A stretch of 47,412 bases of DNA, taken from positions 1 to 47,412 of the IMG/VR virus record IMGVR_UViG_3300042197_003248; one strand, 5' to 3'. Positions 18,196 through 36,578 of the stretch are shown one piece after another (position 1 is the first letter of the stretch; every line of letters starts with the position of its first letter). The position numbers and the translations under genes are program-made. This DNA is from a virus. The notes under the pieces are model-generated. The model was not told the DNA's origin and made no database searches. It was given only the letters and a program-made list of their open reading frames with translations.

Positions 18196-19272
18196 CTATT
18201 CTAGTATACACCTATATATAGTAGAAGCGGTATTGTTCCAGGTGAGGGAATTAGCCGTTTTAACACCTTCTGGGTTGCTGCGAATATTATTTTTATATAC
18301 ATATCTCATATAATCAATCAGTGCGTCTTTTTGTTTTTTAGATATTTTGGCCCAATTGCCCTGTTTTTGAAATGCTTTACCGTCATATGCTGATTCTATC
18401 TCATCTATATCAACTAAGAAAGCATTGTTTTTATTGCAGTACTCTGTGTGAGCAGAATAGTTGGTTGTTATTACTGGCTTGTTCATAGCCATTGACTCTA
18501 GTAGTTCTAAATTCCATCCCTCAGCCCTAGAAGGGAATACCCCACAATCTCCATTACTAATAAACCGGGCTACTTCTAGATGGTTATCAAAACCATTAAA
18601 AATTTTGATCCTAGAGTCTTTCGAGTATTTATTTTGCCACTCTTTGAGATCTTGTTCATTGGAATAGTTATTGGTATTCTGGGGAGCCAATACTCTTAGT
18701 TCAACATCCTTTTCGGTTGGAAAAGCATCTTGAAATAATTTATACAATATATCGTGTCCTTTTCTCACTTCCCATTTGCCAATATTGTAAAATACATAAT
18801 TGCTGGATATTTCTGTTGGTGATATATTATGATCAAAAATTTGTAAATCAACACCAAGGGGCACTACTATTGTTCTTGTTTTGATTCCGTTATCAGAAAT
18901 TACGTTCTGTGCCCAATGACTTGTTACAAATAAAACATCAGGAACTGACATATGTGCCTTTTCCGTGTTATTGAATGTATCCAACTCAAAAAAAGGCATA
19001 GCATAGTATGGTCCTTTACCTAGTCTGAGAGCCAAATCGAACTGGTGCCATATCTTTATGGTTGGACAATCAAAAGAGGCGGTGTCTATCCCTGCTTTAA
19101 GTAAATTTACTAATATATCATAATCTGATTTTCTTGAAACGGTTGGAGACCCTATGCTATAATAGGCTAAATCTAACTTATCTCCGTATTGTAAGTACAA
19201 GCTTCGAAGAATATTCAACGAAGCTATACCATAGCCAGTGGGATTGATTGGTGATTGAAAATTAAGTTTCAT
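18196..19272 (-). CDS. GT4-type glycosyltransferase
   Basis: The protein has 358 residues of the GT-B fold. Recognisable blocks are the N-terminal Gly-loop PTGYGIASLNI, 'YNIGKWEVRKGHDIL' opening the second domain, and the donor-site motif CGVFPSRAEGWNLELLESMAMNKPVI, with the E-x7-E glutamates typical of GT4 retaining enzymes. The ATG at 19272 fits the family start and overlaps the guaC-like stop by 11 nt; the longer frame from 19323 adds 17 residues unlike the family. It probably transfers a nucleotide-sugar to LPS, capsule or a phage glycoprotein; the acceptor is unknown. Confidence 0.85.
   Translation of the reverse strand: MKLNFQSPINPTGYGIASLNILRSLYLQYGDKLDLAYYSIGSPTVSRKSDYDILVNLLKAGIDTASFDCPTIKIWHQFDLALRLGKGPYYAMPFFELDTFNNTEKAHMSVPDVLFVTSHWAQNVISDNGIKTRTIVVPLGVDLQIFDHNISPTEISSNYVFYNIGKWEVRKGHDILYKLFQDAFPTEKDVELRVLAPQNTNNYSNEQDLKEWQNKYSKDSRIKIFNGFDNHLEVARFISNGDCGVFPSRAEGWNLELLESMAMNKPVITTNYSAHTEYCNKNNAFLVDIDEIESAYDGKAFQKQGNWAKISKKQKDALIDYMRYVYKNNIRSNPEGVKTANSLTWNNTASTIYRCILE
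18203..18212 (-). promoter_or_regulatory. GGTGTATACT promoter-like element
   Basis: This copy of the GGTGTAT motif lies inside the last codons of the GT4 gene, 34 bases before the ATG of the 179-aa gene. There is no recognisable -35. It may start the transcript for the assembly-type genes downstream. Confidence 0.4.
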
Positions 19273-20410
19273 AAAATTTATTGTGGGTATTATTGACCAT
19301 GATGAAAGTTGTTTTTTTACCAAATTCTTTTATTTTAGCTGCTCCAATATATGTACAGGCACTTCTTAGTCCACCAAATATATCAAGTAAAACGTTGTGT
19401 ACCGGACCCTTGTAAGACACCGAAACACATCTACCTTCGCTTGTTCTGTAATTAGCAACGCCATTGTGATGTTTATCCATAGCTTCTTTACTGCTCATAC
19501 CATAAAACTTGAGTGTTTTTTTTCTTTTATCTGCTGATGATGGAATATAACCAGGATCAAAAGATGACCACTGCTCATGCAACACCTTTCCTTTGTTATC
19601 AATAATGGCCCTGCGATACTCATACTCCCATTCTCCCTCGCACTCATCACATCCAGCAAAAAAATTACCACACATTACAAAATCCGCATTGGTGCCAAAA
19701 ACCTTACAAATATCACCAACGTATCTGCATCCACCATCACCACAAATGTGTCCGCCATGACCATGAGCAGCGTCAGCACATTCCATACAAGCAGAAATTT
19801 GTCCGTACCCCACCCCTGTTTTAAGTCTTGTGGTACAAACAGAACCTGGACCTATTCCAACCTTAACTATATCTACTTTTCCATGCAGAATGAGTTCTTC
19901 CACCATCTCTGGTGTAACCACATTTCCTGCCATTATAATAATATCATCATACAGTTTTCTTATATTGGCTACTGTTTTAACAAATTTTTCGCTATAGCCA
20001 TTGGCTACATCTACGCAAACATTGGGTGCGGGTACTCCTTTTTTCTTGAGTTCTCCAAATACAAGATTTAATTTTTCTATATCTGAAGAGGATGTTCCCG
20101 TTGAATAGAATACTAGATCTTTATGTTTTGTTGATTCTGATGTATAATATTTAATTAGGTTTTCTGGTTTGTAGTGTTTATGTAAAGCCACTATTCCTTT
20201 GTGATGACAAACCACATCTGCCATAGCAAAAGTTCCTGTTGTGTCCATATTTGCTACAATCACAGGAACTGCGGATAGTTTTCTTGGTGAGTGTTTGAAA
20301 TGAAAATCTCTAACTAACGACACCTCAGACCTACTAGACAGTGTGGATCTTTTTGGTCTAATAAGTACATCATCAAAATCTAGCTTGAGTTCATTTATGA
20401 TTTTTTGCAT
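19262..20410 (-). CDS. guaC: GMP reductase
   Basis: The protein has 382 residues of the IMPDH/GMP-reductase barrel. Evidence: DFDDVLIRPKRS at the start, IVANMDTTGTF, and the flap motif KVGIGPGSVCTTRLKTGVGY with catalytic Cys192 and Thr194. HICGDGGCRYVGDI and the C-terminal GGLRSACTYIGA also fit. There is no CBS domain, and the CTTR form points to GMP reductase (GMP to IMP, NADPH) rather than IMP dehydrogenase. It is longer than typical GuaC (about 345). A phage copy would shift guanine nucleotides toward IMP. It is coupled to the SET gene by a TAATG overlap. Confidence 0.85.
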   Translation of the reverse strand: MQKIINELKLDFDDVLIRPKRSTLSSRSEVSLVRDFHFKHSPRKLSAVPVIVANMDTTGTFAMADVVCHHKGIVALHKHYKPENLIKYYTSESTKHKDLVFYSTGTSSSDIEKLNLVFGELKKKGVPAPNVCVDVANGYSEKFVKTVANIRKLYDDIIIMAGNVVTPEMVEELILHGKVDIVKVGIGPGSVCTTRLKTGVGYGQISACMECADAAHGHGGHICGDGGCRYVGDICKVFGTNADFVMCGNFFAGCDECEGEWEYEYRRAIIDNKGKVLHEQWSSFDPGYIPSSADKRKKTLKFYGMSSKEAMDKHHNGVANYRTSEGRCVSVSYKGPVHNVLLDIFGGLRSACTYIGAAKIKEFGKKTTFIMVNNTHNKFYET

Positions 20411-20826
20411 TATAATTCTATTTTTTTCTTATTAAGAAAGTACATGGGTCCATATGATATAAATATTTCATTATCAGCCGGTATGTCTTTTATAGCAGTA
20501 ATGTCTGCTGTTAAATTATTATAATCGAATGATATGTTTGCGTTTGCGTTGTCTTGATGGTTGTATACCATACCATATCCCATAATCATATATAAATCAT
20601 ATCCATGTTGACGACAATGGTCGCATGGGCGACAAGGCTTGGCATATACATAATCTAAGATCTGTAAATCACAATGATATTTAGACGAAAAATCTAATTT
20701 TATCATTGGGCATCTTTCTATGAGATCGTTTTCTAATATGTTTTTTTTTGCAAATACGCCCCTACCATGCACGACAGAATAAGACACATAAGTATTACTG
20801 TCTTTTATAAAAACAGAATCATTCAT
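20410..20826 (-). CDS. SET-domain protein, putative lysine methyltransferase
   Basis: The protein has 138 residues, the whole of a minimal SET domain: GRGVFAKKNILENDLIE (SAM-binding start), MVYNHQDNAN (the NH-type motif), and IPADNEIFISYG (the catalytic Tyr block). A CRPCDHC pair lies mid-protein. The ATG at 20826 overlaps the upstream stop as ATGA, which is why I prefer it to 20844. It should methylate a protein lysine. The target is unknown; bacterial and phage SET proteins of this size are poorly characterised. Confidence 0.75.
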   Translation of the reverse strand: MNDSVFIKDSNTYVSYSVVHGRGVFAKKNILENDLIERCPMIKLDFSSKYHCDLQILDYVYAKPCRPCDHCRQHGYDLYMIMGYGMVYNHQDNANANISFDYNNLTADITAIKDIPADNEIFISYGPMYFLNKKKIEL

Positions 20827-21353
20827 ATATGAAAAAATCTCCATCTATTGTAGGTGAGTATATTTTCATCTATATTTATGTGTATAAGATACTTTTTAAT
20901 ATCTTCCCAGTTAGAAAAAAACATTTGGTGTGGTATGGCTCCAAAAAGCCAGTCCGGTGTGTGTTCTTTGCCTTGTTCTACATGGATAAGAATGGGCTTT
21001 TTTGATCTATTGGCATCAAAAATTTCTTCATAGGTACCACAAGGATGTACGTCCAAGTCTAAGTTTACTATCAAAAAATCACTTATATCTACTAACCTCA
21101 AATCAACAGATCTGATTGTTTTCATCATATGAGCAAGCTCTTCGTATCTGTGTTGATCTTTTAGTTTTATCTTGATGAGGTGTGTGTCGTGATCTTCGAG
21201 ACCGATTTCTGTGGGTTTGTTGATGGGATTAAAAACAACAATACCCATATCTGTTAGAAACGGAGTTATATTATCTCTCCATGTTGTGCCTCTGTCGGCA
21301 ACGCGATCCATAGCTCCAGCAAGATACACCCTTTGATTTTTAAGTCTATTCAT
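20823..21353 (-). CDS. Nucleoside 2-deoxyribosyltransferase-like protein
   Basis: The protein has 176 residues. VYLAGAMDRVADRGTTWR at the start and DFLIVNLDLDVHPCGTYEEI in the middle match the nucleoside 2-deoxyribosyltransferase-like fold (YLAGp..., then D..vanld....GT..E). Such enzymes cleave or exchange the base of deoxynucleosides or deoxynucleotides. Next to GMP reductase and downstream of sugar genes, a nucleotide-modifying role is plausible. The C-terminus (WLFGAIPHQMFFSNWEDIKK) is typical of phage members. Confidence 0.7.
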   Translation of the reverse strand: MNRLKNQRVYLAGAMDRVADRGTTWRDNITPFLTDMGIVVFNPINKPTEIGLEDHDTHLIKIKLKDQHRYEELAHMMKTIRSVDLRLVDISDFLIVNLDLDVHPCGTYEEIFDANRSKKPILIHVEQGKEHTPDWLFGAIPHQMFFSNWEDIKKYLIHINIDENILTYNRWRFFHI

Positions 21354-21359
21354 TGTGAA

Positions 21360-21971
21360 CTAGTTTAAATTCTCCGGCTTGTACAGTACACACATATTAC
21401 CATCCCATGCGTGTTGGTACTTACTTAGATCTGATCCAAAATATTCGGTAATAGACAACTTAACACCTGGACAGTTTTGCCACTCCCAATCATCAAATAC
21501 CATTGCTCCTCCGGGTACTAGTCTTGGCCAAAATATTTCTATGGCATTTTTTGTGGACTGGTATAGGTCTAGATCTAGGTGTACAAAACAAAACTTTTCG
21601 TCGGTTAAATACTTAGCGGATTCTGGAATCCACCCAGGAAAAAATAAGCAATTGGTTTTGTCTGACAAATAAGATTTCACCTCGGACAATCCTACGTCAC
21701 TAAAATCTCCTTTTTGGTGTCCGTTATTAACCTGGTCGCTTTCTAGCATACCTTCGAAAGAATCAAACAACAAAATATTTTTATTGTTGAAGATTGTAGC
21801 CAGTAATCTGGCGCTCCCCCCTTTATAAACCCCACACTCGGCAATATCCCCAGACAGACCCTTTTCTGCTATACCAACAGCCTTTTGTGCCAAATACTGC
21901 AATTTACTGCCTAGTATGGATGTGTTTTGAGTTCCGCCAAAAGAGATTTCTATGTATTGATTATAATTCAT
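21360..21971 (-). CDS. TylF/MycF-type O-methyltransferase
   Basis: The protein has 203 residues. The SAM-binding motif I is GDIAECGVYKGGSARLLA; ILLFDSFEGM gives the acidic residue after beta-2. FVHLDLDLYQSTKNAIE then WPRLVPGGAMVFDDW is the metal-binding/DDW block typical of TylF-family macrocin-type methyltransferases. These methylate sugar hydroxyls, so it may cap a glycan built by the neighbouring glycosyltransferases. It is coupled by ATGA to a 32-aa membrane peptide upstream. Confidence 0.85.
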   Translation of the reverse strand: MNYNQYIEISFGGTQNTSILGSKLQYLAQKAVGIAEKGLSGDIAECGVYKGGSARLLATIFNNKNILLFDSFEGMLESDQVNNGHQKGDFSDVGLSEVKSYLSDKTNCLFFPGWIPESAKYLTDEKFCFVHLDLDLYQSTKNAIEIFWPRLVPGGAMVFDDWEWQNCPGVKLSITEYFGSDLSKYQHAWDGNMCVLYKPENLN

Positions 21972-22123: not shown

Positions 22124-22681
22124 TTATTTTTTGATTGACAGCAGTTCTAGCACAGCATCGGCAACATCTTTTGACGGTATGGTGTTGATAAGTCTATACG
22201 GGTCATCGTTTGCGAAAACGGGTTTTAGGCTTGTGTACTGTGAAGGTTCAAACAAACGAATATCTTCTGGTCTAGAAAAATATGGTCCTGTATTTTTGGC
22301 ATACTGAGCATATAATGCTACTATTTTTTTGTTGTAATGTGAGGCAAGGTGTACGGGCAGACTATCAAAACCAAGATGTAGTTCGGAGTTTTTGATAAGA
22401 TAAGCTAAAGAATGGTATGTTGTTTTTCCAAGATAAGAAATATTGGCATCATATCGAATGTCGTTCAATAATCCTATTTGTACTATATCATAATCAAATT
22501 CTGTTGTTTTGAGTTTGCGTATAACATCGCTCCATTGTCCGTATTGTCTTCCATTTCCTTTATTGTTATAAGGATGAAATGTAATGTATCTACGACTTGG
22601 TAAAGGTATTTCTTCTTCTTCTATTTCGCATTTATTAATAAAAAGACCAGACACTAAGGCATAAGATTCTATAAGATGCAT
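22124..22681 (-). CDS. GT9 (heptosyltransferase-like) C-terminal half
   Basis: The protein has 185 residues matching the donor-binding half of GT9 enzymes: ITFHPYNNKGNGRQYGQWSDVI (the acceptor-side 'P......K.W' block), SLAYLIKNSELHLGFDSLPVHLASHY (the 'D.G..H.A' donor motif) and IVALYAQY. The N-terminal Rossmann half is encoded by the gene upstream, and the two overlap by one base (TAATG). I infer a two-subunit heptosyltransferase-like enzyme, or a split gene kept functional by reassociation. Confidence 0.7.
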   Translation of the reverse strand: MHLIESYALVSGLFINKCEIEEEEIPLPSRRYITFHPYNNKGNGRQYGQWSDVIRKLKTTEFDYDIVQIGLLNDIRYDANISYLGKTTYHSLAYLIKNSELHLGFDSLPVHLASHYNKKIVALYAQYAKNTGPYFSRPEDIRLFEPSQYTSLKPVFANDDPYRLINTIPSKDVADAVLELLSIKK

Positions 22682-23073
22682 TATGATTCCTTTTTGATTT
22701 TTATAGCTATTCGACTACGGCTATTATTAAGGTAATTTGTATGAATTTGTGTTAAGCATGTAGCGTGGATGCTTATGTCGAAGAGTCCAGGCCATTCACC
22801 GGTACCCTCCATTAGTATTTGATGAATCATATATATATGATAATCTAATATTTTATATATATGTGGATTATTTTTTAGAATGTCTTTGAATTCTGGCTTG
22901 CAAGCAAAATAAATATCGTATTCGTGATATGTTTCTTTAAGGCTGTTTAGTAAACTAGTAGATAAAAATACATCACCAGCACTTTCTGGCACAATAAATA
23001 ACAGCCTAGGATTGCCGGTATCGTCTAATTGTGATCGAATATGTTGTATATTAGGATCTTCTAATGGATTCAT
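22681..23073 (-). CDS. GT9 (heptosyltransferase-like) N-terminal half
   Basis: The protein has 130 residues. RLLFIVPESAGDVFLSTSLL is the GT9 N-terminal nucleotide/acceptor loop ('GD.....p....L'), followed by YDIYFACKPEFKDILKNNPHI, the second strand pair of that domain. It ends RSRIAIKIKKES, where a one-piece enzyme would continue into the second domain found in the next gene. Its ATG lies 23 bases inside the nucleotidyltransferase gene and lacks a clear SD, so it probably relies on translational coupling. Confidence 0.65.
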   Translation of the reverse strand: MNPLEDPNIQHIRSQLDDTGNPRLLFIVPESAGDVFLSTSLLNSLKETYHEYDIYFACKPEFKDILKNNPHIYKILDYHIYMIHQILMEGTGEWPGLFDISIHATCLTQIHTNYLNNSRSRIAIKIKKES

Positions 23074-23449
23074 ATATGATGGATGATGAAAGATCTGGAA
23101 TTTTAGGAAAAAAAATAACCCGTTTAACTACTTCTCTGCCTATAACTGGTTTATTTATATAATCGTCTCCGATTACTATAGTGTCAATACTGTGTTTTAC
23201 AAGACTGTCGATAAGCTCTTCGTCGCTATCAAAGACTACCAGATTGTCTATGTATTTGATATGAGACAGAAATTTTAGTCTATATTCTTGATTATGAAAG
23301 GGTTTGTTCTCTCCTTTAAGTTTTTTGATTCTCTGGTCCGAATCGATACCTACTGTAAGATTATAGCCTAAAGACTTAGCATATTGGAACAGGGACAGGT
23401 GTCCCAAATGTATTATATCAAAACATCCGTTTGTCCATATGTTTGTCAT
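23051..23449 (-). CDS. RfaE2/HldE-type nucleotidyltransferase
   Basis: The protein has 132 residues: WTNGCFDIIHLGH (HxGH nucleotide motif), VGIDSDQRIKKLKG, then a C-terminal 'IVIGDDYINKPVIGREVVKR' block as in the ADP-heptose synthase domain of HldE, where GGDY is usual. It would join AMP or CMP to a sugar-1-phosphate. The ATG at 23449 overlaps the kinase stop as ATGA. In many bacteria kinase and transferase are one protein; here they are separate but coupled. A glycerol-phosphate cytidylyltransferase is the main alternative. Confidence 0.75.
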   Translation of the reverse strand: MTNIWTNGCFDIIHLGHLSLFQYAKSLGYNLTVGIDSDQRIKKLKGENKPFHNQEYRLKFLSHIKYIDNLVVFDSDEELIDSLVKHSIDTIVIGDDYINKPVIGREVVKRVIFFPKIPDLSSSIIYESIRRS

Positions 23450-24204
23450 GGTGTGCAAACCCCGAATTTGGATACCACCCTACCTGCACAAGCATTAGCA
23501 TACTCAATACTAATAGAAATATTTTTAGTTTCTAGATATTTCACTACTAATCCGGCTAAAAAAGTATCCCCTGCTCCACACACATCTCTTACATCAATAT
23601 TAGGTGTGGGATAATTTTTTTCTGAATCTTTAGTGATATGTAAAGCCCCCTTAGCTCCCTGAGTAACGATGATATTAGAACATATAGATCGTATATAAGA
23701 CAAATCCAAGACATTATGATCGAATTCTGTCTGATTGATTTTTAAAAAATGACACCCATTAACAAAATTATTGATTTTTTTCTTAGTGTCTATAAAAGAC
23801 ACAGCACGGTTGGAAATATTTGTTAATATATATTTTATATCTTGTTCCGACAAAAATCCTTTACAGTAGTCAGATAATACAATGGCATCGTATTCTTTTT
23901 TAGGTATCGTATCTATATCAATCGGATCGCATTGGTCATATATGTCTTGTCTAAATACAATAGAATTATATCTGGTATCTACAAATCTTCTTTTGATAAT
24001 TGGTGTGGTATTGGTAATCAAATCAACAACATAGTCGGGTTGTAGAGTTTTTATATTTGTTGCAACATTAGCTGCCATGCCAGCGTTAGACGCTTCGTTA
24101 TTGTCGCTTTTAAAACACATGGCGGCGGCTTCTGGACAAACCCTGTCACAACGACCAAACACATACTGATCAACACATGATTCCCCTATAAGTAATATAT
24201 TCAT
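23446..24204 (-). CDS. PfkB-family sugar kinase, heptose-phosphate-kinase type
   Basis: The protein has 252 residues: MNILLIGESCVDQYVFG start, NAGMAANVATNI (substrate-side Gly motif), IVLSDYCKGFL, and VRDVCGAGDTFLAGL (the GAGD catalytic/anion-hole motif with Asp as base). The arrangement beside an RfaE2-like gene identifies it as the HldE kinase-domain equivalent, D-glycero-D-manno-heptose-7-phosphate 1-kinase, rather than a ribokinase. It is shorter than the HldE kinase domain (about 310). Coupled by overlap to the phosphatase (24204) and nucleotidyltransferase (23449) genes. Confidence 0.75.
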   Translation of the reverse strand: MNILLIGESCVDQYVFGRCDRVCPEAAAMCFKSDNNEASNAGMAANVATNIKTLQPDYVVDLITNTTPIIKRRFVDTRYNSIVFRQDIYDQCDPIDIDTIPKKEYDAIVLSDYCKGFLSEQDIKYILTNISNRAVSFIDTKKKINNFVNGCHFLKINQTEFDHNVLDLSYIRSICSNIIVTQGAKGALHITKDSEKNYPTPNIDVRDVCGAGDTFLAGLVVKYLETKNISISIEYANACAGRVVSKFGVCTP

Positions 24205-24506
24205 TATTGTTGATCACCAAAATAAGTCATATCATTTATGGACTTGTCGTCTATATAATAGTCATATACTGGTTTATTGAAAATAACATTATGCCTCAAA
24301 CACCCCCAATCATCTAGTTGTTGGAGTGTCAATTTTGACCAATCTTTACCGCTTCTGGAACCCCTAGCGGTCCAGTATGTTATATGGTGTCCTTCGATAT
24401 AGAGATTATTAATTCTCTCTATTCTAGATGATATAGGCGTACTATTTTCATAATCGCTATTTTGTGTTTTACATATGGTATTATCTATATCTATATAGTA
24501 TATCAA
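24204..24506 (-). CDS. Small HAD-superfamily phosphatase
   Basis: The protein has 100 residues. YIDIDNTIC is the DxD nucleophile motif, YWTARGSRSG motif II (Thr), and DYYIDDKS the C-terminal acidic motif; Lys in 'NKPVYD' fits motif III. There is no cap domain, so it suits small or exposed sugar-phosphates. Its place directly before the heptose-kinase-like gene suggests removal of the 7-phosphate between kinase and nucleotidyltransferase steps (the GmhB job). That is inference from order, since it is not a close GmhB look-alike. Confidence 0.7.
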   Translation of the reverse strand: MIYYIDIDNTICKTQNSDYENSTPISSRIERINNLYIEGHHITYWTARGSRSGKDWSKLTLQQLDDWGCLRHNVIFNKPVYDYYIDDKSINDMTYFGDQQ

Positions 24507-24509
24507 ATA

Positions 24510-24863
24510 CTAGTCTCCTATAATAATTCTGTAGCTATCATCATCAAAGTGCTGGGTAGAAAATTCGAATAGTTCGGTATCTTCCAGTGCTATCATTTGA
24601 TGTCTGAGTCCTCGATAAATATGAAAATTGTCTCCTGGACCCAAAATAATCTCTCTTGCTTGCTGATAATTATCGTTATCGTTATATTTTAATAATATTT
24701 TGCCGCTGTGTATATAAAAGGTTTCATCTTTTAGAATATGATAATGAAAAGAGCATTTTTTGTTTTTGTAAAAATAGAGCAACTTACCACAATATTCTGG
24801 CTTATTGACTATCCATTTTTCAAAACCCCATCCCTTTTTAACTATGATTGGATCGTTAGGCAT
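24510..24863 (-). CDS. Cupin-fold protein, sugar-phosphate isomerase/epimerase-like
   Basis: The protein has 117 residues, a single cupin: CSFHYHILKDETFYIHSGKILL has the metal-binding 'HYH....E' pattern, and ILGPGDNFHIYRGLRHQMIA holds 'G..H'. Single-domain cupins of this form act as mannose-6-phosphate isomerase-like or sugar-nucleotide epimerase-like enzymes in surface-polysaccharide clusters. It overlaps the upstream GT-B-like gene by 8 nt. The exact substrate cannot be read from the sequence. Confidence 0.7.
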   Translation of the reverse strand: MPNDPIIVKKGWGFEKWIVNKPEYCGKLLYFYKNKKCSFHYHILKDETFYIHSGKILLKYNDNDNYQQAREIILGPGDNFHIYRGLRHQMIALEDTELFEFSTQHFDDDSYRIIIGD

Positions 24864-25554
24864 AATTAATTTTCATCCATTTGGAGGATATATCTAAAGA
24901 TGTTCCGTCTTGTCTGATATCGTGATAATACAATTCTATATTGGGTGGCAACAACAAACTGTCTATCAGATGGAAAATTGAGCTATTAATACAGTGTATT
25001 TGTTTGGCTCTAAAAATCATAGGAACATAACTAAATAAATTAGGGTATTCGGTTTCTTTACGAATATAAATTTCTTTATAGGAAAATGGATTGGTGGCTA
25101 TAGTTAAATCGTATTTTTGTTGGCTGCTCTCGTTATGTATAATTATGAATTTTTCTTCTGGAAATTGTATGATATTGTCTGGGTCTTTGCGTATAGGCAT
25201 TGCAAATAATTCATATCTGTATTCGAATGGCAAGCCTATTTGATCATAAAAAGATTTAGCCCAATTATTATAATCGGTATGCTCAAAACCTATTCTCAGT
25301 ACAGGTATAGCTCGTTCTTCTGCAAAATTATTCACGAACGAAATTTCATTGTCTTCGATAGTAAAAACTGTTATTTTGTTGTTTTCCGAATACAAGTAAT
25401 TTACCGTTTCATAATTATGCTTTTTGCACGGTAGGAATATCTGTTCATATTTTATAGATAAAAAATTAACTAAGCCATTACATACAAAGTGATCACCTAG
25501 ACCTAAGTGATGATGTAAGACTATTTTGGTATCTTCTGGTAACGGAGTTTTCAT
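24856..25554 (-). CDS. GT-B-like glycosyltransferase-related protein
   Basis: The protein has 232 residues. KIVLHHHLGLGDHFVCNGLV is a Gly-rich loop after the first strand, typical of GT9 or fucosyltransferase-like GT-B N-terminal domains. 'KFIIIHNESSQQKYDL' opens the second half, and CINSSIFHLIDSLLLP resembles the donor-binding 'S....D....'. It is shorter than full GT9 enzymes (about 320). It lies in the sugar cluster, so a transferase role is likely, but donor and acceptor are unknown. Confidence 0.6.
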   Translation of the reverse strand: MKTPLPEDTKIVLHHHLGLGDHFVCNGLVNFLSIKYEQIFLPCKKHNYETVNYLYSENNKITVFTIEDNEISFVNNFAEERAIPVLRIGFEHTDYNNWAKSFYDQIGLPFEYRYELFAMPIRKDPDNIIQFPEEKFIIIHNESSQQKYDLTIATNPFSYKEIYIRKETEYPNLFSYVPMIFRAKQIHCINSSIFHLIDSLLLPPNIELYYHDIRQDGTSLDISSKWMKINYA

Positions 25555-26462
25555 GGCTCTTGTAGTGTTTCGTAGAACGGTTTATTAAAATACTTACTGT
25601 ATTCTGGGTCGTTTTCTATGGGCCATGGGTTGTTTTGTCTATTCCATCTTTCGTAGGCGGCGTTGTAAGAGCGGTGGTAAAACTTAACCCGATCCAGATG
25701 TCTGTACAATAAATAAGCAGGACTAGAGTGAAACCAATGCACTATGGCTGACCTATCAAAGCTGGCACCACTGTATCCGTGAAAAGAATCTGGGCAAACT
25801 TCGAATATAAATAGACTATTATTTTCTGGAGGAATCTCCTTAATGAATGAATTCAGATTCCAATTGCCATAAATAGAGGTTCCTCCTTTGTCGTTTTCTG
25901 TCCAGTCTTCTTTATTATTGAGATAATATAAACCCGCAACGCTTCTGATAAACTTGTTTGTATTAGGCTGTTGATCAACCGAATCATCAGAATAATAACA
26001 GTCTCCTGTCAATCTTGTTTCGTTACTGTTTGTACAAGTACTACCGGAGCATATATTAAGGTCTCTGTGTACAAAACCATATTTTGATGGAGCCTGATGC
26101 CAATGGGCACTTAATGCAATATAATTATTTAGTTCTATATTAAAGGTTTTAGCACAAAAGGATTTCCACTGATCATTAATAAAAAAATCATACCCTATGT
26201 GATTGCAGTCTGTTTTATTTAAACCATAGATATATCCAGCATAATCATGTACAGCTCCTGGTTGATCTTTGTATGGTGTTGTTCTTTTTATAAATAGTGG
26301 AAACTGCTCACAGATTTTACTATATATTTCTTCTTTGAATAAGTTACGAATAACTAAATAATGAAACGGTTCTGTAAAAAAATCCACACTTACTGATGGA
26401 TTAACATGGTAATGCTGTTTTAGATTTTCTAGATATAGCGGGTTGGTGTCTATTAAATACAT
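25551..26462 (-). CDS. 2-oxoglutarate/Fe(II)-dependent oxygenase
   Basis: The protein has 303 residues. The facial triad is visible: His132 and Asp134 in FVHRDL, distal His228 in SFHGYSG, with Arg237 (FDRSAIVHWF) positioned to bind 2-oxoglutarate. GGTSIYGNW follows a double-stranded-beta-helix strand. This matches prolyl-hydroxylase/phytanoyl-type oxygenases. In the sugar cluster it could hydroxylate a glycan, a lipid or a protein side chain such as Pro. It overlaps the SDR stop by one base and the GT-B-like start by ATGA. Confidence 0.8.
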   Translation of the reverse strand: MYLIDTNPLYLENLKQHYHVNPSVSVDFFTEPFHYLVIRNLFKEEIYSKICEQFPLFIKRTTPYKDQPGAVHDYAGYIYGLNKTDCNHIGYDFFINDQWKSFCAKTFNIELNNYIALSAHWHQAPSKYGFVHRDLNICSGSTCTNSNETRLTGDCYYSDDSVDQQPNTNKFIRSVAGLYYLNNKEDWTENDKGGTSIYGNWNLNSFIKEIPPENNSLFIFEVCPDSFHGYSGASFDRSAIVHWFHSSPAYLLYRHLDRVKFYHRSYNAAYERWNRQNNPWPIENDPEYSKYFNKPFYETLQEP

Positions 26463-27091
26463 TAGAGTCCTAAGTTATATGACTTACTATTATGATTGGG
26501 TTCCGAAATTATTTTTAGTAATAATTCAGTTACGGTTTTAACACTAATAGCTCCGGATTCTGGACAAGCTACGGTATTCGTGTTTTTCCAATAAAAAACA
26601 TTGTCTCTTTTTTCAAAACGTCCTGTGTAGTCATGATCTCCATACACTGCGCATGGACGTATTATTATAGTACGATCTTTATCTCCTTTTGTCAAAATAA
26701 AATGTTCTATTCTCTGTTTATTTATACAATATCTAGCGTAATCAGGATCAAGATGAAAAGAATCCATATATTTATAGTCATAAACGCTTTGTGTAGACAC
26801 CAGAATATATTGTTGGTATTTATTTAATTGATTAGCTGTATTTAAATACTGATTCAAAGAATAGCAACTAAAGTCTATGATAGTATCAAATGTGTATTCT
26901 TTTAGAATTTTACATTTATCAGCATGGTCTCTGTCTATAGCTAAATGATTTATATGACGAAACAACTCAGGATTCGTGAGTCCCCTATTTGCTATAACTA
27001 AACTTGTTTGGCCTATATCTACAAGGGACTGGGTAAAATCCCTCCCAAGCATTTGGGTGCCGCCTAAAATCAAAAACCCATAATGAGACAT
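26462..27091 (-). CDS. SDR-family NAD(P)-dependent sugar epimerase/dehydratase-like protein
   Basis: The protein has 209 residues. FLILGGTQMLGRDF is the Rossmann dinucleotide loop; VSTQSVYD carries the catalytic Ser/Thr and YARYCINK the Tyr-x3-Lys pair; IIIRPCAVYGDHDY follows as in extended SDRs. At ~210 residues it lacks much of the C-terminal substrate domain of HldD, GalE or RmlD (about 300), so specificity is unclear. In this cluster it is the best candidate for the epimerase step on a nucleotide sugar. Confidence 0.75.
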   Translation of the reverse strand: MSHYGFLILGGTQMLGRDFTQSLVDIGQTSLVIANRGLTNPELFRHINHLAIDRDHADKCKILKEYTFDTIIDFSCYSLNQYLNTANQLNKYQQYILVSTQSVYDYKYMDSFHLDPDYARYCINKQRIEHFILTKGDKDRTIIIRPCAVYGDHDYTGRFEKRDNVFYWKNTNTVACPESGAISVKTVTELLLKIISEPNHNSKSYNLGL

Positions 27092-27093
27092 GA

Positions 27094-27660
27094 TTAATGA
27101 TTTTGGTGATGATTGTACACAAATACCTGATACCTACCCCAAATGTCTTGTATTAAATCTTCTATAAAATTCCAATTACCTCCTGCTAGTCCGCTACCAA
27201 ATTTTGGAGCATGGATCTCTATATTTTCTTGTTTGTTGGTGAATTCTGTATTCTTATTGATAAAATAAGCTAGTTGACTCATGCTTCTTACCAAAGCGGC
27301 ATAGTTGAGGGGTCTGGGATTTTTGGCGTGTTTTATGCCGTTTTGGGCGATCATATTAACAAAATATAACTTATGTCTATATTGTTCGTGTTCGTATACT
27401 TTGATTACTTGTGAGTGTCCAAGATTTTCTCTTAGAAATTTTTTACCCAACATATGATAATTTGCTTTAACTTCTGGATATCTGTCAGAAACCTGAGCAG
27501 CAAACCCTGCGCCAAACGTGTCTATGTTGTTGCAAACATGAGGAACAAATACCGTACAGCCCAATTCTTTGGCTTTTGTTCTTTCTTTAATAATAGCAAA
27601 TATATCGGCATTATTCATGACTTGTAAATTGTTGTTTTTTGTATTTTGTGTAATTGGCAT
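27094..27660 (-). CDS. Macro-domain protein (ADP-ribose-type hydrolase)
   Basis: The protein has 188 residues. CTVFVPHVCNNIDTFGAGFA matches the macro-domain 'HQ(c)N...mgaGfA' ligand loop; HAPKFGSGLAGGNW matches the second loop 'iP.iG.GlaGG.w'. The domain binds or hydrolyses ADP-ribose derivatives (Appr-1''-phosphate or protein ADP-ribose). In a phage it could counter NAD+- or ADP-ribosylation-based defence or recycle tRNA-splicing by-products; this is inference. A strong AAGGA lies before the ATG. Confidence 0.85.
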   Translation of the reverse strand: MPITQNTKNNNLQVMNNADIFAIIKERTKAKELGCTVFVPHVCNNIDTFGAGFAAQVSDRYPEVKANYHMLGKKFLRENLGHSQVIKVYEHEQYRHKLYFVNMIAQNGIKHAKNPRPLNYAALVRSMSQLAYFINKNTEFTNKQENIEIHAPKFGSGLAGGNWNFIEDLIQDIWGRYQVFVYNHHQNH

Positions 27661-28303: not shown

Positions 28304-29956
28304 ATGATTAATACTACTCTGGTTACTGGAATATGGGACTTGGGCCGAGATAAGGCCAAGGAGGGGTGGGGCAGACCTTTTGATCACTATATAAACAACT
28401 TTAAATCCCTACTTTCTGCAACACAGAATATTCCTCTGTGTATTTTTATAGAACCAGATAATGAAAACATAGTGTGGGATATTAGAAGCAAGGAAAACAC
28501 GAGAATAATTAATCAGCCAAGAGAAAAGTTTAATAGTGAATTTTTCCCATTTTTTGATAGGGTTCAGGAGATAAGAAAAAAACCAGAGTGGCTAAACCAA
28601 GTTGGTTGGTTAGCTGACAGTACGCAAGCAGTAATGGACTGGTACAACCCGATGGTTATGAGCAAAATGTTCATGCTGCATAATGCCAAAATATACAACT
28701 TTTTTAACACTGATTATTATTTCTGGATAGATGGCGGGATAACAAATACCGTCCACCCCGGATATTTTTCGCACGATAATGTTATACAAAAAATAGAAAA
28801 TATAGTCAAAAACTTTTTATTTATAAGCTTTCCTTATGAGACAAATACAGAAATTCATGGGTTCGATATTAATGGAATGAAACATTTCGCCCATTCTGAC
28901 AAGGTTGATAGGGTTGCTAGGGGCGGCTTTTTTGGTGGTCATAAAGATATTATTTCTTCAGCCAATGAGCTTTATTATTCATTATTAAGAGATACGCTTA
29001 ATAGCGGTTATATGGGTACAGAAGAAAGTATTTTTACTTTAATGACATATTTAGATCCGGAAACTTATGAGTTCGAACCCATACTGGACAACGGATTAAT
29101 TAATCATTTTTTTGAAAACGTTAAAAACGGTTCTACTAAACTACAATCTAAAGTTTCTAAAAGAATTCAATCGCAAAATAATGACATTGTATTATATATA
29201 AATGCATTTAATTCTCCAGATCAGCTACAAATGGTTTTAGATTCTTTTGAAAAATATGATAATAATTTTATTACTAAAACACAAAAATATTTGATAAATA
29301 ATTCAACCAAAGAAGATTTATTTCCTGAATATGATAAAATTTCTTCTAAATATGGATTTACAGAAATAAGAAAAGGTAATCTTGGAATATGCAGAGCCAG
29401 ACAATTAGCTGCCGAACACTTTAAAGAGCTAGGCGCTAAATATATGATGTTCTTTGAGGATGATATGCTAATAGATTTAAGTGACAGCAGATGCCCTTTT
29501 GGTTTTCCTAAAAAGGTCAATAATTTATTTCAAACAGTGGTAAGAATAATGGATATTGAAGAGTATGATTTTTTGAAATTCAGTTTTAGCGAGTTTTATG
29601 GACACAATGGAGATCAGTGGGCTTGGCATAATGTTCCTCACCATAAACGTATTGAATACTTTGGTAATACAAACAAAAAACCTTTAACGCAGTATTCTCA
29701 CATCAAATCTATAAACCAAACACCTTACTGCGAAGGAGAGATTTACTATTGCAACTGGCCGCATATAATAGATCAAGAAGGCAATCAGAAACTATTTTTG
29801 GACACTACATGGGCTAATCCGTTTGAGCAAACATGGATGAGTCACATATATAGCCTTACCAAAGAAAACAAAGTAAAATCAGCAATATTATTAGCATCCC
29901 CTATCACACACAACAGAGTTCATTTTTATGAGTCGCACGAAAGAAAAGAAAACTAA
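28304..29956 (+). CDS. Two-domain glycosyltransferase: HtrL/YibB-like plus GT2-like
   Basis: The protein has 550 residues. Residues about 1-280 match the HtrL/YibB/WlaTC type: VTGIWDLGRDK start, a 'YNPMVMSKMFMLHNA' block, YYFWIDGGITNT (acidic metal site), and ARGGFFGGHKDII with MGTEESIFTLM. Residues about 295-550 form a second GT-A domain: VLYINAFNSPDQLQMVLDS, GICRARQLAAEHF, and MMFFEDDM as the DxD-type motif. It has no clear SD. It heads the only plus-strand operon and overlaps the next gene by 29 nt. A fusion of two transferases suggests sequential addition of sugars. Confidence 0.8.
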   Translation: MINTTLVTGIWDLGRDKAKEGWGRPFDHYINNFKSLLSATQNIPLCIFIEPDNENIVWDIRSKENTRIINQPREKFNSEFFPFFDRVQEIRKKPEWLNQVGWLADSTQAVMDWYNPMVMSKMFMLHNAKIYNFFNTDYYFWIDGGITNTVHPGYFSHDNVIQKIENIVKNFLFISFPYETNTEIHGFDINGMKHFAHSDKVDRVARGGFFGGHKDIISSANELYYSLLRDTLNSGYMGTEESIFTLMTYLDPETYEFEPILDNGLINHFFENVKNGSTKLQSKVSKRIQSQNNDIVLYINAFNSPDQLQMVLDSFEKYDNNFITKTQKYLINNSTKEDLFPEYDKISSKYGFTEIRKGNLGICRARQLAAEHFKELGAKYMMFFEDDMLIDLSDSRCPFGFPKKVNNLFQTVVRIMDIEEYDFLKFSFSEFYGHNGDQWAWHNVPHHKRIEYFGNTNKKPLTQYSHIKSINQTPYCEGEIYYCNWPHIIDQEGNQKLFLDTTWANPFEQTWMSHIYSLTKENKVKSAILLASPITHNRVHFYESHERKEN

Positions 29957-31217
29957 CAAATCAGAACCAAATACTATTTTTATACAAATAGCAGCATATA
30001 GAGATCCTCAATTGTTACCCACTCTAAACGATATGATTGCTAAAGCTAAATATCCAGATAATCTACGCATAGGCATTGCTTGGCAGCACAAAGAAGGAGA
30101 CGAATGGGACGATATATCAGTATATAAGTCAGACTCTAGATTCAGAATCCTAGACATAAACTATAAAGAATCAAAGGGGGTGTGTTGGGCAAGAAATGCT
30201 GTTCAACAATTATATGAAGACGAAACATATACCCTACAATTAGATAGTCACCACAGATTCGTTCAAGATTGGGATGCTATACTAATTGATATGATAACAG
30301 AACTCCAGAAGAACGGTTCTCCAAAACCTTTGATAACAGCATATATTCCTAGTTTTGACCCAGACAATGATCCGGCAGCAAGGGTTCAAGAGCCATGGAA
30401 AATGAATTTTGATAGGTTTATCCCAGAAGGGGCAGTGTTCTTCCTCCCTGCTTCATTTGATAGCTGGGATGATAGGACCAAACCACTACCAGCAAGATTT
30501 TATAGTGCCCACTTCGCTTTTAGTGTAGGAGCTTTCGCTAAAGAGGTTCAGCACGATCCTGAATATTATTTTCATGGCGAAGAAATTAGTATAGCTGTAC
30601 GAGCGTTTACCCATGGATACGACTTATATCATCCGAATAAGGTAATATGCTGGCATGAGTATACAAGAAAAGGAAGAACCAAACAGTGGGATGATGATCC
30701 GGTTTGGGTCCAAAGAAATAATAACTCCCATCTTAGAAACCGTAAATTATTTGGTATGGATGGCGAAGTTCAAGACATAGATTTTGGTAAATATGGTTTC
30801 GGTACAACTCGAACATTAAGAGACTATGAGAGATATGCCGGATTAAGCTTTAAGAGAAGGGCCATACAAAAACACGTACTAGAACATAAAGCACCCCCTG
30901 ATCCAAATCAATTTGCCGATGAAGAAACTTTTGAGGGTGGATTTTTAAGTATTTTTAAGCACTGTATAGATATCGGATATGATAGGGTTCCAGAAAAAGA
31001 CTATGATTTTTGGGTCGTTGCTTTCCATGACAAAGAAGACAATACTCTCTTTAGAAAAGACGCAGATAAAAACGAAATACAAATGATGATGAATGATCCA
31101 GATAAATACTGTAAGGTCTGGAGAGAATTTCCAACAGATATTAAACCCCATTACTGGGTGGTGTGGCCTTACAGCGCATCAAAGGGGTGGTGTGAAAGAA
31201 TAACTGGTAGTCTATAA
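29928..31217 (+). CDS. GlcNAc-transferase-like glycosyltransferase (Skp1 GnT family type)
   Basis: The protein has 429 residues. TIFIQIAAYRDPQLLPTLND, GIAWQHKEGDEWDD, GVCWARNAVQQLY and YTLQLDSHHRFVQDWD (metal-site DxH in place of DxD) match the family of polypeptide GlcNAc-transferases typified by the Dictyostelium Skp1 enzyme. FHGEEISIAVRAFTHGYDLY is the C-terminal acceptor-side block. Family members add GlcNAc to hydroxyproline, so a protein acceptor is plausible here. Coupled to both neighbours by overlaps. Confidence 0.8.
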   Translation: MSRTKEKKTNKSEPNTIFIQIAAYRDPQLLPTLNDMIAKAKYPDNLRIGIAWQHKEGDEWDDISVYKSDSRFRILDINYKESKGVCWARNAVQQLYEDETYTLQLDSHHRFVQDWDAILIDMITELQKNGSPKPLITAYIPSFDPDNDPAARVQEPWKMNFDRFIPEGAVFFLPASFDSWDDRTKPLPARFYSAHFAFSVGAFAKEVQHDPEYYFHGEEISIAVRAFTHGYDLYHPNKVICWHEYTRKGRTKQWDDDPVWVQRNNNSHLRNRKLFGMDGEVQDIDFGKYGFGTTRTLRDYERYAGLSFKRRAIQKHVLEHKAPPDPNQFADEETFEGGFLSIFKHCIDIGYDRVPEKDYDFWVVAFHDKEDNTLFRKDADKNEIQMMMNDPDKYCKVWREFPTDIKPHYWVVWPYSASKGWCERITGSL

Positions 31218-31882
31218 TGCTTAAAATTATTGCTTTTAGTTTATGGGGCAATAATCCCAAATACAATATGGGAGCTATAGAAAATGCCAAGATAGCACAG
31301 AATCTATACAAAGATTGGCTTTGCAAATTCTATATAGGTCAATCTGTTCCTTCATTAACCATTAAAGAACTCAAAAAACTGGATAATACAGATGTAATAA
31401 TAATGGACCAAGCCGGAGATTGGTCTGGTATGTTTTGGAGATTTTTACCTGCTTTCGATGAATCTGTTGATATTATGGTGTCCAGAGACACAGACAGTCG
31501 CCTTAGCGAAAGAGAAAAACAAGCAGTAGACGAATGGTTATTATCCGATAAAGATTTTCATATCATGAGGGACCATCCATTCCATAACACACAGATTTTA
31601 GGAGGAATGTGGGGGGTTAGAAATAATTTACTTAACAAATTATCTATTGATATGGCCGGTTTTGTTAAAGATAATTTTTGGCAAGTAGATCAAAATTTTC
31701 TTAGGTCTTGTGTATATCCATTTGTGGTTGATCACTCTATGATACACGATAATTACAGAGCATACAACGAACCTAATGCCAAGAATTTTCCTACTAATAG
31801 AATAAATAAAGAATTTGTTGGGGAAATATATGACGAATATAACAATAGACATCCGGATCACTATACATTAATACAAGAATAG
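31217..31882 (+). CDS. GT-A-type glycosyltransferase-like protein
   Basis: The protein has 221 residues. KIIAFSLWGNNPKYNMGAIENA start, then IMVSRDTDSRLSEREKQAVDEWL, where RDTDSR is the DxD metal/nucleotide site, and HNTQILGGMWGVRN. These are hallmarks of a small GT-A family often found in capsule clusters. It begins inside the previous stop (TAATG). Donor sugar unknown. Confidence 0.75.
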   Translation: MLKIIAFSLWGNNPKYNMGAIENAKIAQNLYKDWLCKFYIGQSVPSLTIKELKKLDNTDVIIMDQAGDWSGMFWRFLPAFDESVDIMVSRDTDSRLSEREKQAVDEWLLSDKDFHIMRDHPFHNTQILGGMWGVRNNLLNKLSIDMAGFVKDNFWQVDQNFLRSCVYPFVVDHSMIHDNYRAYNEPNAKNFPTNRINKEFVGEIYDEYNNRHPDHYTLIQE

Positions 31883-31885
31883 CTT

Positions 31886-32536
31886 ATGAGATTTCTTATT
31901 AAATTTCCGAGTCGAGGCAGGCCAGACAAATTCCAGTATGCCATTAATCAGTATACATCTATGGCTTCTTCTAAACACATCATTTCTTTTGTGTGTACTT
32001 TTGATAAGGATGACGAATTGATGAATACAGAAGACATCAAAATCTACTTATCTTCTATTCCCAATCTTAGATTCTATTACGGTAATTCACAAAATAAAAT
32101 AGAAGCCATTAATGCGAATCTAGAGAATATTACTGATTTTGATATCTTAATACTAGCAGCAGACGACCTATATCCTATAGTACAAAACTATGACGATATT
32201 ATTGCAGAAGATTTTTTAATTCATCACCCAGACTTGGACGGCCCGCTGCATTATATGAATCCTAGCTGGGAAGAAAGACTAGACATAGGCTGTATTATGG
32301 GTCGTAATTATTACAATAGGTTCAAATACATATATCATCCAGCGTACAAAACCATTTTTTGTGATAATGAATACATGGAGGTGGCTAAAATCTTAAATAA
32401 ACATACATATATACCTAAACAATTATTTGCTCATCACTATGTAATATCGGATCCTACAGCAAATAGAAACTGGATATTTAATAGTCACGACGAACAACTA
32501 TTCCATAAACGTAAATCTTTAAATTTTGATCTATAA
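31886..32536 (+). CDS. GT2-like glycosyltransferase
   Basis: The protein has 216 residues. FLIKFPSRGRPDKFQYAINQY opens the GT-A fold, NKIEAINANLENITDFDILILAADDLYPIV contains the AADD acidic metal site, and IFCDNEYMEVAKIL the downstream acceptor block. It lies three bases after the previous gene. It is a minimal GT2-like enzyme; donor and acceptor are not deducible. Confidence 0.75.
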   Translation: MRFLIKFPSRGRPDKFQYAINQYTSMASSKHIISFVCTFDKDDELMNTEDIKIYLSSIPNLRFYYGNSQNKIEAINANLENITDFDILILAADDLYPIVQNYDDIIAEDFLIHHPDLDGPLHYMNPSWEERLDIGCIMGRNYYNRFKYIYHPAYKTIFCDNEYMEVAKILNKHTYIPKQLFAHHYVISDPTANRNWIFNSHDEQLFHKRKSLNFDL

Positions 32537-32542
32537 CATAAC

Positions 32543-33511
32543 ATGTTTTCTATTTTAGGGTCCGAACTAGCAGACATAGGGTTTTTCATTAATCTAGATT
32601 CTTCCACAGAAAGACTAGATAATGTTAAAAAACAAATAGATCAGTTTCAAATAACAGATCTACATAGATTCCCCGCCCTAAAAGATCCCCTACACCAAGC
32701 ATCAGCAACAAAAAGCCATTGTGCTGCTTTATCTTCGGCTATTAATTCAGGACATGATTCTTTATTTATTGCGGAAGACGATTTTCAGCTTTACGACAAT
32801 GTATTTGTAACAGAACCACATATAAACAAAAAAACATCAGACTACTTAAAAATACTATCAGAACATCTATTAAATACAGAATGGGACGTTGTGTGCTTGG
32901 GTTTTAATGGCAAGAAAAGATGCATACCGATAAGCCCGCATCTGTCAAAAAACTTTAAATCTACAGGGGCGTGGGGTTATCTGATAAAAAGAAGAGCTGC
33001 TGAGTTCATCCTAAACAATTTTAGCTACTACAGAGACAGACAGGCTATAGATGATCTTTTGCCAGCCTTAACGTATTACGGTTTTCGTTCTTTTGTAACC
33101 AATGTTCAGATATGTCATCATGCTCACGGTTTTGTATCAACTCTTCAGCCGTCTCTTGGCCCAATAGATTACAGACAATGGATTACAGGAAACTATTATA
33201 ATACAATATGGCATTACATTAAAGAAATTCCAGCTGATTTTGACAGCGCTTTAGCACAAATATATTCTGGATCTGATTTTAATCGAAATAATATTGTTAG
33301 AATCACTAATTATAATGAAGATATTACTGGTCTTATTGATTTCGTCGATAGACATCCAGAATACTATGGAACATACATAGATTTAGATACATCAAAAGAT
33401 AGACATATAGGATATTTAATATCAGTAGAGTTTCATAATCTTATACATTCCTGGACAGATACTCCTAGAATCACCGGACTTGGTTCAAATATTATTGAAA
33501 TACAAATCTAG
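32543..33511 (+). CDS. GT25-type glycosyltransferase
   Basis: The protein has 322 residues. GFFINLDSSTERLDNVKKQI is the GT25 start ('viNL....R'), ATKSHCAALSSAINSGHDSLFIAEDDF has the 'GC..SH......' and EDD metal motifs, and STGAWGYLIKRRAAEFIL the G.aYlis block. DDLLPAL is the second acidic site. GT25 enzymes include LPS galactosyltransferases and collagen hydroxylysine galactosyltransferases. The last ~90 residues are an extra domain. It ends in CTAG shared with the convergent protease gene's stop. Confidence 0.8.
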   Translation: MFSILGSELADIGFFINLDSSTERLDNVKKQIDQFQITDLHRFPALKDPLHQASATKSHCAALSSAINSGHDSLFIAEDDFQLYDNVFVTEPHINKKTSDYLKILSEHLLNTEWDVVCLGFNGKKRCIPISPHLSKNFKSTGAWGYLIKRRAAEFILNNFSYYRDRQAIDDLLPALTYYGFRSFVTNVQICHHAHGFVSTLQPSLGPIDYRQWITGNYYNTIWHYIKEIPADFDSALAQIYSGSDFNRNNIVRITNYNEDITGLIDFVDRHPEYYGTYIDLDTSKDRHIGYLISVEFHNLIHSWTDTPRITGLGSNIIEIQI

Positions 33512-35573: not shown

Positions 35574-36578
35574 TTATAAAACCTTTGCAGCTATCAAGCA
35601 TCCTTTAGATACGGCATGAAGAGGATCGTTAGCATGTTTTACCTCTTTAACAGGTAGCGGAAAATTGTTTTCTGTTAATTTTGCTTGAAAAAGTTCTATA
35701 TAACCTTTGGCTTGGGAAGTTCCGCCAGCCACAACCACTGTTAACGGTTCTTTAAATTTAGGCAACAGCTTATGACCTAATAATGCAGCCGATAATTGTT
35801 TTGTTGTATAGTCTATAAGACGTTCATAATATGACGAGACAGCAGAAAGAATAGGATTGCTATTGTCTTCTCCTATTACGAATCCTCCGTTCTCTTTTTC
35901 GGCTTGAACAACACTGTCCGGTTCGCCTGTTGCAACAGCACTCATTCTGTCGATCCAGTCACCACTTTTGGTTGTGCTAAAAGTAACCGTAGGTTCACCG
36001 TTCAACATAACGCAAACATTGGTCATACCAGCACCACAACTAATAGCAATACCAGTATAGTCACTTGTTTCAAGTTCCGCATAGCAAAGAGCCTCTGCCT
36101 CATTAATTGCTCTAGCAGCATAGCCACACTCTGATAGTATGGCTTTTACAACGTCTTCATGATACCCGACATCAAAATCTTCATCTTCTTGATCCACTGG
36201 TTGTGCAGGAACGCAGAATACCAGCTTTTCTCCTGTTTCAGAAGCTTGACCAACCACCTCCTTGAGAATAAAAGACAAAACCTTCTTGGCTTCTTTTTCT
36301 TTTGCTGATACTACGCCCTTATACATTGGTCTTTTTGCGGTATCATTTCTTTCTATAGCTTTTTCTATAGCGTCTTTGCCCAATAAAATAAAGGACCCAT
36401 CAGTATCTTTTATAAAAACTTTGCCAGACAAGCCTTTCTCTATCATTTTGGTGGCAACGGGAGTTGTGGGTTTTATAATATAGAAAGCATCTCTAAAATC
36501 TTTATAAACTAATCCGCCACTTGCGTCTTCTTTTGATAATACTATAAAACTAGTTCCAACATCTAGTCCACAACTCAT
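35574..36578 (-). CDS. Actin-like ATPase (ParM/MreB/Hsp70 fold)
   Basis: The protein has 334 residues. GLDVGTSFIVLS is the phosphate-1 loop, TGIAISCGAGMTNVCVM the phosphate-2 loop (SCGAG where DxGxG is usual), INEAEALCYA the connect-1-type helix, and VVVAGGTSQAKGYIELF the adenosine motif. It should bind ATP and may polymerise. In phages such proteins can position or segregate DNA. The replaced Asp in phosphate-2 could lower ATPase activity. No DNA-binding partner gene is obvious beside it. Confidence 0.8.
   Translation of the reverse strand: MSCGLDVGTSFIVLSKEDASGGLVYKDFRDAFYIIKPTTPVATKMIEKGLSGKVFIKDTDGSFILLGKDAIEKAIERNDTAKRPMYKGVVSAKEKEAKKVLSFILKEVVGQASETGEKLVFCVPAQPVDQEDEDFDVGYHEDVVKAILSECGYAARAINEAEALCYAELETSDYTGIAISCGAGMTNVCVMLNGEPTVTFSTTKSGDWIDRMSAVATGEPDSVVQAEKENGGFVIGEDNSNPILSAVSSYYERLIDYTTKQLSAALLGHKLLPKFKEPLTVVVAGGTSQAKGYIELFQAKLTENNFPLPVKEVKHANDPLHAVSKGCLIAAKVL

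Follow-up and report, generated by a model that had tools for sequence, protein, structure and literature searches.

A module of kinase, nucleotidyltransferase, HAD phosphatase and cupin genes has been known for over a decade in T4-like cyanophages (P-SSM2, S-SM2). Three phages have T4-GC 304, 305, 307 and 308 together, and it was left open whether these are working genes or stuffer DNA (Sullivan and others, PMC3037559). The order in P-SSM2 is nucleotidyltransferase, kinase, HAD (“phosphoheptose isomerase”), cupin (“cysteine dioxygenase”), SDR and 2-oxoglutarate (2OG) oxygenase, and the arrangement is similar in S-SM2, P-TIM68 and Sf-FS3. Here we analyze a 47,412-base virus record (IMGVR_UViG_3300042197_003248, the whole of which is called the window) that carries a related glycosylation cassette, read on the minus strand from 27091 down to 21360. 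We assign a probability of roughly 0.6 to the reading that this virus encodes an ADP-heptose-type nucleotide-sugar pathway with its own two-subunit, Alg13/Alg14-like transferase of family GT9, serving to glycosylate a surface or the virion. The split transferase is the part that seems new; the pathway module and split GT-B enzymes (Alg13/Alg14) are already known kinds.

The original prediction recognized in this locus the two halves of a GT9 heptosyltransferase-like enzyme, and this was borne out by matches to PF01075 and TIGR02201, by the donor and Asp motifs, and by structure comparison, in which GT9 ranked first for both halves. The N-terminal half (22681 to 23073, minus strand, 130 aa), which would be the acceptor side, matches TIGR02201 (7e-4, positions 1 to 54) and carries PESAGD, whose Asp is invariant across 8 homologues; we take this to correspond to the GD motif of WaaC, which bears the catalytic Asp. 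The C-terminal half (22124 to 22681, minus strand, 185 aa), the probable nucleotide-sugar side, matches PF01075 (4e-6, above its cut-off) and contains GFDSLPVHLAS, i.e., the GT9 donor motif G-x-D-S-x(3)-H-x-A. Its start codon and the stop codon of the N half share 1 nt (TAATG). A search of PDB sequences with a three-sequence profile of the C half gave no match, and the GT9 likeness came from structure comparison. AlphaFold2 models had a pLDDT of 89.9 (C half) and 81 (N half). Foldseek retrieved for the C half 3tov (9e-8) and WaaF 1psw (1e-7), then TibC (probability 1.00) and WaaC, and for the N half GT9 3tov followed by WaaF 1psw (probability 1.00), the same top two structures for both.

The separation of GT9 into two chains has broad comparative evidence behind it. 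Searching with the C half yielded 44 viral loci and with the N half 265, of which 80 were fetched; the latter search does not depend on the junction and was run as a check on start-codon bias in the former. A single-chain GT9 was found neither in these 80 viral loci nor in the 44. The C half lay nearby on its own frame in 78 of the 80 N-half loci, and in the remaining two the stretch that was fetched contained no C half. Among 90 non-identical viral loci compared, the split position was always identical, the C half was in a different frame from the N half in 82, the spacing between the halves ranged from -14 to +637 nt, and in seven there was an intervening gene. The varying frames and spacing, together with the intervening genes, rule out a sequencing error or a programmed frameshift as the origin of the split. 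A split as a common bacterial trait was likewise rejected, as it was not seen in a control set of 120 Pseudomonadota genomes, where matches to the C-half profile were single chain in 25 of 25 cases (frames of 329 to 452 aa). The sole single-chain relative found was a 333-aa protein of a Bacteroidetes metagenome-assembled genome (MAG; L073). Separately, a 213-aa glycosyltransferase-like gene is placed between the GT9 halves at L031:5356-5997.

The kinase cassette goes with one of the two architectures in which the halves occur, either free-standing, as in the window, or with the N half behind a GT4-like protein and the C half followed by ca. 200 unassigned residues. Judged on flanks of only 4 to 8 kb, the cassette was close to free-standing halves in eight of nine viruses (seven of eight complete siblings plus the window) and to the fused form in none of 82 loci. 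The exception, L017, has a split GT9, and the kinase was not found in its whole 186-kb record. No annotated phage in the phage collection searched, cultured ones included, and no PHROG family holds the GT9 halves. In the part of the literature searched we found no description of a GT9 that is split throughout a large group of viruses and linked with a heptose-type cassette.

For the window kinase (23446 to 24204, minus strand, 252 aa, phrog_8133; PfkB 1.5e-21) and nucleotidyltransferase (23051 to 23458, minus strand, 135 aa, phrog_7878), the HldA and HldC models outscored all others in the NCBIfam scan. The kinase reached 112 bits with TIGR02198, below the curated cut-off of 345, and 50 bits with ribokinase, and the nucleotidyltransferase 94 bits with TIGR02199 and 69 with the TagD model. 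Among PDB sequences the top match of the kinase was HldA 4e84 (94 bits; ribokinase, 49 bits). A tree of 130 kinases placed the phage proteins with a patchy cellular set, mostly Patescibacteria, in a short-form clade (support 97) beside all HldA/HldE (93). Some of the remaining “cellular” rows resemble contigs of phages that had been binned with marine MAGs. The short-form kinase has ca. 30 residues fewer than HldA, missing after the first conserved block, retains the GAGD motif, and is rare in Patescibacteria (one strong match in 145 genomes). The nucleotidyltransferase has an invariant HxGH motif. In its tree, for which the TagD, ECT and 5x9q reference rows were drawn from profile-search alignments, the phage proteins were excluded from the HldC/HldE clade (98/93) and also stood outside TagD/ECT. 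By these comparisons the kinase is best described as HldA-like, in a sister clade to HldA/HldE, and the nucleotidyltransferase as HldC-like. The labels first given to them, heptose-type kinase and RfaE2-type nucleotidyltransferase, are thus right as to nearest relatives (HldA and not ribokinase; HldC-like and not within the TagD group) and wrong if they imply a place inside the HldA or HldC/HldE clades proper. The two outcomes named in advance as contrary to them, a kinase grouping with ribokinases and a nucleotidyltransferase grouping with glycerol-phosphate cytidylyltransferases of the TagD type, did not obtain. The division of the enzymes into separate genes is real. For the kinase and the nucleotidyltransferase such separation is commonplace, as in HldA/HldC, and the separation of GT9 is the notable one.

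Five sibling viruses (L207, L210, L211, L214 and L218) were found through the GT9-half searches. The gene order is cupin-(HAD)-kinase-nucleotidyltransferase-SDR-GT9N-GT9C in L207, L210 and L211, the same without the SDR in L214, and nucleotidyltransferase-GT9N-GT9C-SDR-HAD-cupin in L218. The SDR of L218 scores 337 bits with the HldD model, above the NCBI curated cut-off of 274.6 (GalE, 78), and those of L207, L210, L211, P-SSM2 and Sf-FS3 score 190 to 230 bits (GalE, 49 to 67). In siblings, homologues of HldA-like, HldC-like, HldD and GT9 proteins stand together in a single coupled run. Because the sibling SDRs in cassettes of the same order belong to the HldD epimerase family, a heptose-type pathway is supported, and judging from sequence these SDRs appear to be its strongest support.

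The window itself has ten minus-strand genes between 27091 and 21360, in the order SDR, 2OG-Fe(II) oxygenase, 232-aa GT9-like protein, cupin, HAD, PfkB kinase, nucleotidyltransferase, GT9 N half, GT9 C half and TylF-type methyltransferase. The genes named in the original prediction are all there, on the minus strand and tightly coupled, neighbors across the first nine genes (27091 to 22124) being separated by overlaps of 1 to 23 nt or a 3-nt gap. Its list was incomplete, lacking the oxygenase, the second, small GT9-like protein and the methyltransferase. The last of these (21360 to 21971; PF05711, 5e-19) follows the GT9 C half after 152 nt. The oxygenase (25551 to 26462, 303 aa; PF13661, 4e-7) has counterparts flanking the cassette in P-SSM2 and Sf-FS3 too. 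The small GT9-like protein (24856 to 25554), a probable glycosyltransferase, matched no Pfam family and its GT9 likeness was judged by eye; LGD and C-terminal S/D positions are conserved among its homologues, which occur in ca. 13 Patescibacteria and other loci close to the short-form kinase gene. The cassette is not a chance run, because seven of its genes recur in another virus (L014/L015) in nearly the same order and with 44 to 67% identity; in L014 a TylF-type methyltransferase, 56% identical to that of the window, sits between the nucleotidyltransferase and GT9N.

The remaining steps of the pathway fit less closely. The cupin (24510 to 24863, minus strand, 117 aa, phrog_7851, E=1e-54; Cupin_2, 8.5e-8) has metal ligands H40, H42, E47 and H88 that are invariant across 10 homologues, and we would guess that it is a candidate isomerase. 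The HAD phosphatase (24204 to 24506, minus strand, 100 aa; phrog_1238, 4e-28) retains the motifs DIDxT, TAR, KP and (D/E)DK in 8 homologues. It had been proposed as the counterpart of GmhB; it is indeed a HAD, of the EcbF/BcbF type (9.8e-8), and is not recognizable as GmhB. The short SDR-fold protein (26462 to 27091, minus strand, 209 aa), which keeps the YxxxK motif and falls just under the PF01370 cut-off (E=3e-4, 20.7 against 20.9 bits), was discarded as HldD, the role suggested for it, since it had no NCBIfam match and is only 15% identical to the HldD-like SDR of a sibling. A GmhA-type SIS protein was found neither among the window proteins scanned nor in 12 related records, four of them complete cyanophage genomes. 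The claim that only the isomerase is missing was hence correct for GmhA and overlooked HldD. As to the likeness in order to GmhA/HldE/GmhB/HldD/WaaC, siblings of the cassette have an HldD-family epimerase, and the window has no HldD and no recognizable GmhB; gene order by itself is weak evidence for a heptose pathway.

We observed directly which genes are present, how they relate to known families, that active-site motifs are conserved, that the halves are universally separate and that each has its fold match; heptose as the sugar, the pairing of the GT9 halves, the acceptor and the role in infection we infer. In our model, a ketose phosphate, probably sedoheptulose-7-phosphate of the host, would be isomerized by a host enzyme or by the conserved cupin. 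The HldA-like kinase would then add the anomeric phosphate, the small HAD strip the other one, and the HldC-like nucleotidyltransferase yield the nucleotide-activated sugar, on which the HldD-type epimerase would act next in sibling viruses. Transfer would fall to the two-polypeptide GT9, with the catalytic Asp and the acceptor side on the N half and nucleotide-sugar binding on the C half; made by coupled translation, the halves should pair as one GT-B enzyme, by analogy with Alg13 and Alg14. The TylF protein may O-methylate the product, which would most likely decorate the host surface or the virion. A broader proposal, which we put forward only tentatively, is that an obligate two-subunit GT9 has become fixed in a large group of uncultured viruses, with halves free to recombine or to join other domains, and that a subset of these viruses is fed by a self-contained heptose-type pathway in which the cupin replaces the isomerase.

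Several observations weigh against this model. Neither the kinase nor the nucleotidyltransferase groups within the HldA or HldC clade proper, neither a GmhA-type SIS protein nor HldD was found among the scanned window proteins, and in the Patescibacteria whose kinases are the nearest cellular ones the short kinase is paired not with GmhA but with a zinc alcohol dehydrogenase and E1/transketolase-type thiamine pyrophosphate (TPP) enzymes. S-SM2 and P-TIM68 share that pair, and L020 has an E1-like one. The nucleotidyltransferase profile scored solved cytidylyltransferases, its best PDB matches, at least as high as 5x9q, and the N-half Foldseek matches are weak by E-value (1e-3 for 3tov, 2e-2 for 1psw). 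Falling outside both the HldC/HldE and the TagD/ECT clades, the nucleotidyltransferase may use either ATP or CTP; the product may be CDP linked, and the sugar may be one other than heptose. Since the short kinase follows alcohol dehydrogenase/TPP genes in Patescibacteria, S-SM2 and P-TIM68, some members of the cassette may make another sugar. A different product throughout (e.g., CDP-activated, or branched via a TPP-dependent enzyme), with the HldA/HldC likeness reflecting superfamily kinship only, would suit the separate clade of short-form kinases and their neighbors. However, six sibling or cyanophage cassettes include an HldD-family epimerase, the GT9 folds are nearest to heptosyltransferases, and the HldA and HldC models score highest for the window proteins, so that we take this alternative seriously and still judge it unlikely.

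It seems improbable to us that, instead of forming one enzyme, the GT9 halves are remnants left by decay or a pair of single-domain proteins with no relation to each other. Their fusion to other domains in many viruses, their location apart in seven loci and the loss of the donor Asp or PESAGD in a minority of loci would agree with such an origin, but 78 of 80 loci have both halves, which retain complementary catalytic motifs, one per half, and in the window overlap start to stop. That the sugar genes are mere stuffer DNA without phage function, among the possibilities named for the cyanophage clusters (PMC3037559), is hardly credible for a set with intact active-site residues that recurs, at 40 to 67% identity, in viruses of differing surroundings. 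The cyanophage “LPS genes” (for lipopolysaccharide), possibly stuffer DNA in the 2010 view, are thus found again, as one conserved unit, in viruses that are quite different. Under the ADP-heptose reading, repair of the host core LPS is unlikely for the cyanophage cousins, because heptose is reported absent from cyanobacterial LPS (PMC4390846); a phage heptose pathway in cyanobacteria, if real, would indicate a new surface or virion glycan instead. A naturally split GT9, if confirmed, would be useful for asking how GT-B halves separately specify donor and acceptor.

Next to the cassette, on the plus strand, are five genes (28304 to 33511), several of them glycosyltransferases (an HtrL_YibB domain with a glycosyltransferase, a phrog_24687 glycosyltransferase and a GT25-like protein), and both together form a glycosylation island of ca. 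12 kb. Between them, a minus-strand gene (27094 to 27660) looks macro domain-like by eye, with no Pfam match, and has homologues preceding the glycosylation genes in L017, L020 and L211. Also on the minus strand are an IMPDH/GMP reductase-like gene (19262 to 20844) beside a SET-domain gene, a pairing retained in the relative L017; a 716-aa protein (7167 to 9317) with Hint and LAGLIDADG matches (residues ca. 79 to 403), probably an intein with a homing endonuclease within a phage protein; and volactin, a viral actin-like protein (35574 to 36578, E=1e-62). The Patescibacteria operon (L091:4972-8732, L082, L078 and ca. 17 more loci) comprises a zinc alcohol dehydrogenase, an E1/transketolase-type TPP enzyme in one or two genes and the short HldA-like kinase, and often adds a nucleotidyltransferase, a cupin and the small GT9-like gene. 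A literature search gave no description of its pathway, nor any of phage ADP-heptose.

Among the closest known systems is the cyanophage LPS cluster T4-GC 304/305/306/307/308 (P-SSM2, S-SM2, S-SSM7; PMC3037559), with homologous nucleotidyltransferase, kinase, HAD and cupin genes in one run and an SDR and a 2OG oxygenase adjoining; a tblastn search with the kinase returned 37 records, mostly T4-like cyanophages. However, the four cyanophage loci read have no split GT9 pair, the cyanophages possess the HldD-like SDR that the window lacks, and kinase identity is 35 to 43%. The bacterial LPS ADP-heptose pathway (GmhA-HldE-GmhB-HldD, WaaC/WaaF) shares enzymes of the HldA, HldC and GT9 types, and in siblings the HldD type, whereas the phage version has no GmhA, a small HAD for GmhB, an extra cupin, a short kinase and a two-chain GT9. 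TibC-type heptosyltransferases resemble the C half in a GT9-like fold that uses ADP-heptose, but TibC is single chain, dodecameric and iron containing. The split itself resembles that of Alg13/Alg14, a UDP-GlcNAc transferase with its GT-B fold distributed over two polypeptides, one donor binding and one acceptor half (PMC10937113), which is, however, eukaryotic and MurG related, whereas the enzyme described here is viral and belongs to GT9.

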